Assembly (NCBI GenBank): GCA_947589115.1
Contig: CANPZP010000013.1
Coordinates: 1 to 38,427, forward strand
Direction of reading: 5' to 3'
From: Candidatus Gastranaerophilales bacterium
GTDB lineage: Bacteria; Cyanobacteriota; Vampirovibrionia; Gastranaerophilales; Gastranaerophilaceae
Length of the DNA stretch: 38,427 nucleotides
Positions 6,362 through 8,267 of this stretch are shown here, piece by piece. Under the pieces are notes generated by a model that saw only the letters and a list, made by a program, of their open reading frames with translations, did no database searches and had not been told where the DNA came from. The position numbers were made by a program, and so were the translations under genes. Within the stretch, counting starts at the first letter, position 1, and each line of letters starts with the position of its first letter.

Positions 6362-7576
6362 CTAAGAAGAAACAAAATTCATAATCCTCTTATGATTTTC
6401 TGATATATTTTTTATCCCCATAGAACCTAAAAAAATAGCACCGCTTCCGTATTTATTTTCTACTTTATCTAATATTTCAGAAATTTTAATACTTTTTTTA
6501 TTATCAAAAGTATTAAAAAATGACAGCTGCTTAGTATTTTGATTATATAAATCCCAAGCCCATATTCCTGAAGAACGATATACTATTCCTTTTTTATATA
6601 CAGAATTAAATAAATTATTTATACTTTCCGTCAGAAATATCTCAGAATTTGAAGAAAAAGTTAACTGCTCTTCTTTAAAAAATACCCTGAAATCTTTTGT
6701 CCTCAACATAACAGCAATATGTTTAGCCTCTAAATTTTTTTCTCTTAATTTTTTACAAATATTATGCAAATGATAACTTAGTTCAGCTTTAATATAATCT
6801 TTATCAGAGGAAAATTGAGGAAATGCACGTGAACGCTGAATGGACTTAGGGCTTTCCTGTATTCCGGTTAAAGGAATAACACTGTTTCCCATTAGTTCAT
6901 ACTTTAATTCCAAGCCTTTTTTACCGTAATTTGTTTTATAAAAATCATCATCTTTAAGCAATATTTCATCAGCATAAAATATCCCGTATTTTCTCAAACT
7001 TTTAGCAATATTTTTACCTACACCCCAAATTTCATCAACAGGCAGATTTGCTAATTCCTCTTTAATTAAATGACGCTCTATAACATAAGCTCCTTTTCTT
7101 GATTTTGCCTTATGATTAGCAATTTTAGCCAGAATTTTTGAATTTGCAATTCCCACAGAAACACTTAATCCTATACTTTTTTCTATATCCTGTTTTATTT
7201 TATACGCTAACTGTTTAAAATCCGTTCCGAATACTTTATCAACACCCGTTAAATCTATAAACGCTTCATCTATTGAATATATATCAACTTTATCAGAATA
7301 TTTATACAAAAAAGTCATCATTCGTTGTGAAAGTTCATGGTAAAGAGCAAAATTTGCACTCAGATAAACAACTCCCGAGAAATCCCTTTTTGCCATAAAA
7401 TAAGGAATCCCCATTTTAATACCTAATTTTTTTGCTTCATTAGAACGGGCAATAACACATCCGTCATTATTACTTAATACACATACAGGCTTTCCCCTTA
7501 ATGCAGGATTCATTAATATTTCACATCCCGCAAAAAAATTATTCCCGTCTATCAATGCTATTACTTTTTGTTTCAT
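6362..7576 (-). CDS. umuC: Y-family DNA polymerase, UmuC type (Pol V catalytic subunit)
   Basis: 404 residues. The palm starts MKQKVIALIDGNNFF with metal-binding Asp10, followed by the catalytic SIDEAFIDLT (Asp103 and Glu104). A helix-hairpin-helix thumb (VDEIWGVGKNIAKSLRKYGI) and a C-terminal little-finger region ending near LGSMGIK follow. The length and the C-terminal extension fit UmuC rather than DinB. It should perform error-prone translesion synthesis. An in-frame ATG at 7582 exists, but AAGGA is better spaced from the ATG at 7576. It lies 80 bases downstream of the LexA/UmuD-like gene on the same strand, with a terminator-like hairpin in between, so expression may depend on read-through. 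Confidence 0.93.
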   Translation of the reverse strand: MKQKVIALIDGNNFFAGCEILMNPALRGKPVCVLSNNDGCVIARSNEAKKLGIKMGIPYFMAKRDFSGVVYLSANFALYHELSQRMMTFLYKYSDKVDIYSIDEAFIDLTGVDKVFGTDFKQLAYKIKQDIEKSIGLSVSVGIANSKILAKIANHKAKSRKGAYVIERHLIKEELANLPVDEIWGVGKNIAKSLRKYGIFYADEILLKDDDFYKTNYGKKGLELKYELMGNSVIPLTGIQESPKSIQRSRAFPQFSSDKDYIKAELSYHLHNICKKLREKNLEAKHIAVMLRTKDFRVFFKEEQLTFSSNSEIFLTESINNLFNSVYKKGIVYRSSGIWAWDLYNQNTKQLSFFNTFDNKKSIKISEILDKVENKYGSGAIFLGSMGIKNISENHKRIMNFVSS

Positions 7577-7597
7577 AACCATCCTTAAAGAAAAATC

Positions 7598-7628
7598 TGC
7601 GGGGCATTTTGGAGGAATTTTCCCCGCA
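7598..7628 (-). terminator. Terminator-like hairpin between the SOS repressor and umuC
   Basis: Arms TGCGGGG (7598-7604) and CCCCGCA (7622-7628) form a GC-rich 7-bp stem with a 17-base loop. On the minus strand the stem is followed by GATTTTTCTTT and then, with hardly a gap, by the AAGGA ribosome binding site of umuC. It has the form of an intrinsic terminator, but no promoter fits between it and umuC, so it probably acts as a partial terminator or attenuator. Confidence 0.65.
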
Positions 7629-7656: not shown

Positions 7657-8232
7657 TTATAATTTTCTTACAATCCCTTGCGCAACCCCAAAAATTATAA
7701 GTTCCGTTTCAGGGTACAAATTAGGATAATTTTTATTTGCAGGTTCAAGCCACACTTTTGAGTTTTTACAACGATAAGTTTTTAATGTATACCCTCCGTC
7801 AATAAAGGCTATTACTATATCTCCGTTTTTTGCGGTATTTGTTTTTCTTACAATAACTTTATCGCCTTCATAAATGCCTAAATCAATCATTGAATCTCCG
7901 GATACGGTAAAAAGAAAAGTAGAAGGATTATTTATTTCAAAACTTTCATCCAAAGACACTCTTTTCTCGGCATAATCATCCGCTACCGATGCAAAACCGG
8001 CTTTTACCGCTGATGAAAATAATACGGCACCAAATAATTCTTTATTTATGAAAAATCTTCCGTTTCTTTCTTCTATTAAATTTTCTTCTTTTAACTTATT
8101 AAAATACTGCCATACCGAATTTTTATGTTTAAACCCGAAATTTTTAGAAATAACCTCAAAACTCGGAAGCACTTCTTTTCCGTATGATTCTTTTAATTTT
8201 TCAAAGAATATTTTTTGTTTTTCCGTAAGCAT
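7657..8232 (-). CDS. Self-cleaving SOS repressor, LexA-type DNA-binding domain with UmuD-type S24 domain
   Basis: 191 residues. Residues 1-65 form a LexA-like winged helix-turn-helix (LTEKQKIFF... then SVWQYFNKLKEENLIEE). Residues 72-191 are an S24 peptidase domain. The cleavage site is Ala78-Gly79 in the UmuD-like context AGFASVADDY; the nucleophile is Ser114 (SGDSM) and the general base Lys151 (TLKTY). From Gly79 to Ser114 is 35 residues and to Lys151 a further 37, the spacing I recall for UmuD. It should repress its own promoter and, after RecA-stimulated cleavage, release a UmuD'-like C-terminal part that could partner with the UmuC encoded next to it. There is no ribosome binding site, and the predicted transcript start coincides with the ATG at 8232. 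Whether it is also the genome's only LexA cannot be told here. Confidence 0.88.
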   Translation of the reverse strand: MLTEKQKIFFEKLKESYGKEVLPSFEVISKNFGFKHKNSVWQYFNKLKEENLIEERNGRFFINKELFGAVLFSSAVKAGFASVADDYAEKRVSLDESFEINNPSTFLFTVSGDSMIDLGIYEGDKVIVRKTNTAKNGDIVIAFIDGGYTLKTYRCKNSKVWLEPANKNYPNLYPETELIIFGVAQGIVRKL

Positions 8233-8238
8233 ATTTAT

Positions 8239-8267
8239 ATTATAGACAATTGTCTATAAAAAGTCAA
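8239..8267 (-). promoter_or_regulatory. Promoter of the SOS repressor gene
   Basis: On the minus strand, TTGACT (8267-8262), a 17-base spacer and a perfect TATAAT (8244-8239). The expected transcript start, about 7 bases beyond the -10 box, is at or next to the ATG at 8232, implying a leaderless message. The spacer and -10 box are covered by the palindrome at 8240-8259. Confidence 0.85.
8240..8259. promoter_or_regulatory. 20-bp perfect palindrome, operator of the SOS repressor
   Basis: The sequence TTATAGACAATTGTCTATAA is a perfect inverted repeat with core TAGACAATTGTCTA. It overlaps the -10 box and most of the spacer of the promoter, the position expected for an autorepressor site. It differs from the E. 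coli (CTGT-N8-ACAG) and Bacillus (GAAC-N4-GTTC) SOS boxes. I did not notice a second good copy in the window. Confidence 0.8.

Follow-up and report, generated by a model that had tools for sequence, protein, structure and literature searches.

A predicted one-operon repressor of umuC in a Gastranaerophilales bacterium joins a LexA-type winged helix to a UmuD-lineage S24 domain

Introduction

Is the small autoprotease encoded beside umuC in a Gastranaerophilales bacterium a LexA, a UmuD, or a protein that acts as both? The question was raised by a 38,427-nt stretch of DNA (the window) from Candidatus Gastranaerophilales bacterium (GenBank assembly GCA_947589115.1, contig CANPZP010000013.1). The original prediction, made from the letters of this stretch, described an SOS repressor with a LexA-like N-terminus and a UmuD-type cleavage domain, encoded next to umuC, which may repress its own operon and, after cleavage, supply the UmuD′ subunit, with Acinetobacter UmuDAb as the precedent. 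Within the library searched, no publication describing a Gastranaerophilales SOS switch was found.

Results

Protein architecture

The gene (7657 to 8232, minus strand, start codon ATG) encodes 191 aa, which ORF, Pfam, NCBIfam, tree, and AlphaFold2 data together mark as a probable LexA-type winged helix followed by a UmuD-lineage S24 autoprotease. Pfam matched Peptidase_S24 alone (8e-24; residues 74 to 183, positions 7684 to 8013, minus strand). The LexA-like N-terminus of the original prediction was borne out: T. maritima LexA (3k2z) aligned end to end with residues 3 to 191 in phmmer (E = 3.2e-20), and the AlphaFold2 model (mean pLDDT 86) placed helices at residues 4 to 17, 25 to 32, and 37 to 49 and strands at 53 to 56 and 59 to 62. 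Residues 4 to 62, with three helices and two strands, are modeled as a winged helix; the winged helix-turn-helix (wHTH) domain was delimited as residues 1 to 66 (8035 to 8232, minus strand) from the model and alignment to 3k2z and 3jso, and its predicted recognition helix as residues 37 to 49 (8086 to 8124, minus strand) from the model and ortholog comparison. Structure alignment with VIA-align paired the model with 3k2z over residues 1 to 191 (Z = 15.4) at an rmsd of 12.6 Å, which is due to domain orientation, and the C-terminal domain gave similar matches to the C-domains of UmuD′ and of LexA (Z = 15 to 16).

Alignment across orthologs placed the predicted self-cleavage site at A78-G79 (7996 to 8001), the catalytic serine at Ser114 (7891 to 7893), and the catalytic lysine at Lys151 (7780 to 7782), all on the minus strand; these residues, together with the G-to-S spacing of 35 and the S-to-K spacing of 37, were kept in 52 of 52 intact orthologs checked. 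Cleavage there would free a 113-aa fragment; E. coli UmuD′ has 115 aa. The cleavage site and both spacings had been taken as UmuD-like, and part of this stood. A G-to-S spacing of 35 was found in the aligned UmuDs (one sister-order protein departs from it, with 37), compared to 33 in cyanobacterial LexAs and 34 in most other LexAs, and it is the one diagnostic spacing, a UmuD trait; the S-to-K spacing of 37 is not diagnostic, because E. coli LexA has 37 too. The arm after the cut in this genus, GFASVADDY, resembles the UmuD arm, GFPSPAxDY, only in part; deeper relatives have GFPSPAEDY. The protein scored just under the cut-off of both NCBIfam models, UmuD (PRK10276; 107.8, cut-off 110) and LexA (TIGR00498; 106.9, cut-off 110.95).

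Position in the S24 tree

In a tree of 98 S24 rows, built from 126 columns of a short domain and rooted by midpoint only, the repressor domain fell in one clade with all stand-alone UmuDs (support 100/97), and the LexAs lay outside. A homolog from the sister order and wHTH-S24 proteins from Betaproteobacteria also belong to this clade, and the fused proteins linked to umuC in other phyla branch as a grade between LexA and UmuD. Forcing the domain to group with LexA cost 23.6 log units, a difference that fell short of significance in the AU test (p-AU 0.131). In these sequences, the S24 half groups with the UmuD lineage and a LexA placement is disfavored; a position firmly inside LexA, named beforehand as the outcome that would count against the original prediction, was not recovered, though the p-AU value tempers the result. 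The best matches to the repressor in Cyanobacteriia were stand-alone UmuDs (44 to 48%), ahead of LexAs (about 30%). The sister-order genome G310 has a separate umuD-umuC pair and an unlinked wHTH-S24 gene.

Operator and regulon size

Upstream of the gene, a predicted minus-strand promoter consists of a −35 element, TTGACT (8262 to 8267), and a −10 element, TATAAT (8239 to 8244), with a 17-nt spacer that is occupied by the perfect 20-bp palindrome TTATAGACAATTGTCTATAA (half-site AGAC-N4-GTCT; 8240 to 8259), recognized as a putative operator by pattern scans and comparison of ortholog upstream sequences. With 6 nt between the −10 element and the ATG, the transcript is predicted to be leaderless. 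Equivalent operators in AGAC-, GTAC-, or GAAC-N4 forms lie at the same position at all orthologs with readable upstream sequence, and their frame, NNAC-N4-GTNN, is that of the LexA boxes of cyanobacteria and Gram-positives (PMC3091678). HKNS proteins have half-sites that are all (A/G)GAC, GTAC half-sites occur where the helix starts with SKNSIK, SRNSVV, or SKNSVA, and GAAC half-sites where it starts with SKNSIW (one g17 site is GAAC/GTAC). Residues H36, just before the recognition helix, and W41, within it, vary together with the operator across orthologs, with kinship cutting the independent changes to perhaps two or three. This single promoter-embedded operator, kept in the readable orthologs and co-varying with the recognition helix, strongly supports the predicted repression of the protein's own operon, and we consider a repressor role highly probable.

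Genome-wide pattern searches found one copy of TAGAC-N4-GTCTA in the bacterium's own genome, compared to four of a control pattern, and a single copy in most genus genomes too; with three mismatches allowed over 18 bp, the own genome showed no excess over the control. The recA gene is present, and no operator-type site was found within 300 nt upstream of it. As far as these scans tell, the protein is a one-operon switch and not a global LexA, because its own genome holds no second operator and recA has none. No separate LexA was found: the repressor was the sole S24 match in the 1.82-Mb assembly (98 contigs, 95.7% complete).

A second target was considered in the 18-mer TGTAAACAAATGTCTATA, which is identical in several genus genomes and at L036 (1501 to 1518) covers the start codon of a gene for a small Cys-cluster protein, with no promoter around it; owing to this overlap and the lack of a promoter, coding conservation is the likelier cause, and the candidate was set aside. 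The palindrome TAGACTTTAGTCTA, repeated in G165, G154, and G147 (pattern counts 90, 28, and 7), seems to be a repeat family with no relation to the operator. Genome G162 carries two intact repressor-umuC cassettes (L174 and L176) with an operator at each, and a truncated second repressor copy with the altered operator TATAGGCATTTGCCTATA is present in G156, G157, and G159 (L177, L178, and L179), the one in G156 lying some 3 kb away from the intact site.

The umuC gene and its distribution

The expected neighbor is in place: a gene for a umuC-type Y-family polymerase (406 aa; 6362 to 7582, minus strand), assigned by ORF, Pfam, NCBIfam, and the UmuC tree, starts 74 nt downstream of the repressor gene. 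Its product has a putative beta-clamp motif, QLSFF (6515 to 6529, minus strand; from sequence and knowledge of the family), and a RecA-NT-like motif, ISEILDKVENKYGSGAIFLG (6425 to 6484, minus strand; from comparison of UmuC tails, PMC6511836 and PMC11791011), and lacks the tail that in E. coli follows the RecA-NT motif and binds UmuD′. Between the two genes lies a hairpin, TGCGGGG-(CCTCC-containing loop)-CCCCGCA, followed by a T-run (7598 to 7628, minus strand), the sole one of its kind within the window. It recurs in most own-genus orthologs with a long intergenic region, where the stems differ yet still pair, and an Rfam search gave no match. The hairpin is terminator- or attenuator-like, a possible attenuator of umuC, and may limit read-through into that gene.

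Repressor orthologs were found in 38 of the 146 genomes of the order and umuC homologs in 133. The two genes adjoin at almost all loci of sufficient length (at L018, umuC lay beyond the stretch read), and in another genus they overlap (−4/−1). The UmuC tree kept the order together and resolved the linked forms as a grade, a pattern that suggests an early presence with later loss, and the 28 unlinked forms, which have no linked repressor gene, as a single derived clade (SH-aLRT 99); many genomes of this clade have no S24 protein whatever. At two loci of the clade (L134 and L160), another S24 protein of 218 aa with a different N-terminus lies upstream of umuC and is transcribed away from it, as though a new switch had taken the polymerase over. 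Specific to linked genomes were 7 UmuC positions, compared to 4 in the reverse direction, too weak a signal for use. Among the rows examined, none showed the fused protein with umuC on a plasmid or phage.

Evidence on a possible UmuD-like role

The proposal that the cleaved fragment serves as a UmuD′ subunit met evidence on both sides. In genus g22, eight of nine species have an S24 gene without the wHTH but with intact catalytic residues, encoding about 20 to 35 residues ahead of the cut and preceded by no recognizable operator; in one species, G115, the S24 gene is lost as well. The umuC gene follows at −4 to +7 nt in the seven readable species, locus L321 being cut by a contig end and unreadable for this distance. 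Since these genes nest within the fused clade (97/99), the wHTH was lost. Their pairwise dN/dS was mostly 0.05 to 0.29, with dS saturated in several pairs, similar to the pN/pS of 0.12 in the own-genus fused S24 domain, and this purifying selection implies that selection on the domain outlasted DNA binding. These relatives, which have kept everything but the DNA-binding half, suggest that the released piece is of use to the polymerase as well; its retention could also reflect a role besides UmuC binding.

The arm lies near the UmuC active site in a published Pol V model (PMC11791011). Where a Betaproteobacterial-type cassette also carries a separate umuD (L213, L226, L245, and three more), the repressor arm has drifted to LexA-like values: the median score for the UmuD′ arm motif was 27.1 in two-gene cassettes versus 5.8 in those with a separate umuD (P = 0.001), with reference values of 52.5 for UmuD and 7.4 for LexA. 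The L207 arm was scored 7.7 from its wHTH, its true arm being GWPSPAEEELL, which makes the test conservative. The pattern is suggestive only, because kinship connects the six three-gene loci and a UmuD-like arm is also found in some fused genes that have no umuC nearby. The order wHTH-S24 repressor, separate umuD, and umuC is seen at L213 (2492 to 4858) and L245 (2471 to 4797), and repressor followed by separate umuD at L226 (2456 to 3551). UmuD-type proteins at L289, L293, L304, L231, L253, L259, and L262 bear an N-terminal extension, GxRxGAGRPxG-KYGEPTK-VRxP, which may be a further module for DNA binding or targeting on UmuD.

Against the subunit role, UmuCs paired with a stand-alone UmuD carry a C-terminal DUF4113 tail (degenerate in sister-order L283), whereas those of the order, linked or unlinked, end shortly past the RecA-NT-like motif and have none. 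In E. coli, the last residues of UmuC are required for UmuD′ (PMC11791011, PMC6511836), and removal of the last 26 abolishes UmuD′ binding (PMC11791011). The proposal thus drew support from the wHTH-less g22 genes beside umuC and was weakened by the missing tail, by a large sister clade that has umuC without the gene, by the loss of the gene in G115, and by UmuDAb, which did not replace umuD (PMC4807011).

Discussion

The protein is filed here neither as a LexA nor as a UmuD, because it departs from tested defining features of both. With LexA (TIGR00498; 3k2z, E. coli), it shares the winged helix, the Ala-Gly site, the Ser-Lys dyad, predicted autoregulation, and the box geometry (cyanobacterial box AGTACWNWTGTACT; PMC3091678); it differs in having one target operon and no regulon with recA, an S24 domain outside the LexA clades, a G-S spacing of 35 versus 33 to 34, and a score below the LexA cut-off. 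With UmuD of DNA polymerase V (PRK10276), it shares the S24 clade, the 35/37 spacing, the gene order with umuC, a predicted cleaved fragment of 113 aa, and, in deeper relatives, the GFPSPAEDY arm; it differs in its DNA-binding domain and own operator, a score just below the UmuD cut-off, and a partner UmuC without the UmuD′-binding tail, and the short N-terminal arm of UmuD without a DNA-binding domain is found in genus g22 only.

Acinetobacter UmuDAb, likened here by its published description, is likewise a UmuD-lineage, self-cleaving repressor of umuDC in a genome without LexA. Unlike the present one, its N-terminal region shows no alignment to LexA (PMC4807011); the protein has a site, AACTTGAA-N11-TTCAAGTT, that differs from the operator described here, and it represses several loci. 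The precedent holds for repression of umuDC and does not extend to the polymerase subunit, as a umuD mutant is not complemented by UmuDAb (PMC4807011). Streptococcaceae HdiR is likewise an S24 repressor of itself and of a umuC-type polymerase but, unlike this repressor, originates from a phage repressor (PMC8565304). HdiR and UmuDAb are precedents for a single-operon switch, each differing in the DNA-binding domain. The LexA-like/umuC operons found here in Lentisphaerae, Nitrospirales, Kaiserbacteria, and Omnitrophota also have a wHTH-S24 gene followed by a UmuC-type gene, and most of their promoters contain a palindromic operator of matching geometry; they differ in an S24 domain that belongs to the grade between LexA and UmuD and in UmuC tails that are different again.

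The reading favored here, at a probability of roughly 0.55, is a UmuD-lineage protein that represses its own operon and whose C-terminal part, once cleaved off, probably also acts as a partner of UmuC. The architecture, catalytic residues, operator, one-site regulon within the bacterium's own genome, linkage, and conservation are features of the sequence itself; from them, we infer DNA binding by the repressor, RecA-triggered cleavage, and induction. A repressor dimer would hold the one palindrome between −35 and −10 with its LexA-type winged helix and block transcription of the two-gene repressor-umuC operon. Upon DNA damage, a RecA filament would stimulate cleavage at A78-G79, the DNA-binding half would leave the operator, and umuC would be expressed. 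The released fragment would then probably act as a UmuD-like partner of UmuC, docking without an E. coli-type UmuC tail, and this partnership is the least certain part of the best explanation.

The protein might instead only switch umuC, the released C-terminal fragment having no role and the UmuD likeness being ancestry, as for Acinetobacter UmuDAb, with UmuC working alone or with RecA through the RecA-NT-like motif. This we rate at less than even odds: the order's UmuCs lack the UmuD′-binding tail and have the RecA-NT-like motif, umuC persists without the gene in the 28-row clade, UmuDAb offers the precedent (PMC4807011), and the arm of the own genus reads GFASVA, having drifted from GFPSPA, but a pure repressor leaves unexplained the g22 S24 genes under purifying selection beside umuC with wHTH and operator gone, and the −4/−1 gene overlap in another genus resembles umuDC coupling.

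An ordinary global LexA that merely lies beside umuC is very improbable and was rejected when the genome scans gave one site, with none upstream of recA; the S24 domain groups with UmuD and the gene is absent from most of the order (present in 38 of 146 genomes), in spite of the LexA-type wHTH, the NNAC-N4-GTNN geometry as in cyanobacteria (PMC3091678), and a TIGR00498 score just below the cut-off. Harder still to credit is a mobile or prophage-type S24 switch that arrived recently with umuC. A single-operon regulon as in HdiR (PMC8565304) and the patchy distribution in the order would suit it, but the wHTH is of LexA type and not a CI-type HTH, the UmuC tree keeps the order together with the linked forms as a grade, and none of the trees put the cassette within a phage clade.

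Beyond the favored autorepressor with a UmuC-partnering fragment, and at less than even odds, the protein may be a living LexA-UmuD intermediate, a bifunctional repressor whose fragment is a polymerase subunit, UmuD as a whole having arisen from operon autorepressors that shed their winged helix, a step that g22 would have repeated independently. If true, LexA and UmuD would be linked by an intermediate that has survived and by a case in which nature repeated the loss of DNA binding, and a single cleavage could both activate a mutagenic polymerase and produce the partner for it. With fused, HTH-less, and absent forms, the lineage provides a comparative series for testing the need for UmuD, and in this gut cyanobacterial relative an error-prone DNA polymerase would stand under a dedicated repressor with a LexA-type and a UmuD-type half.
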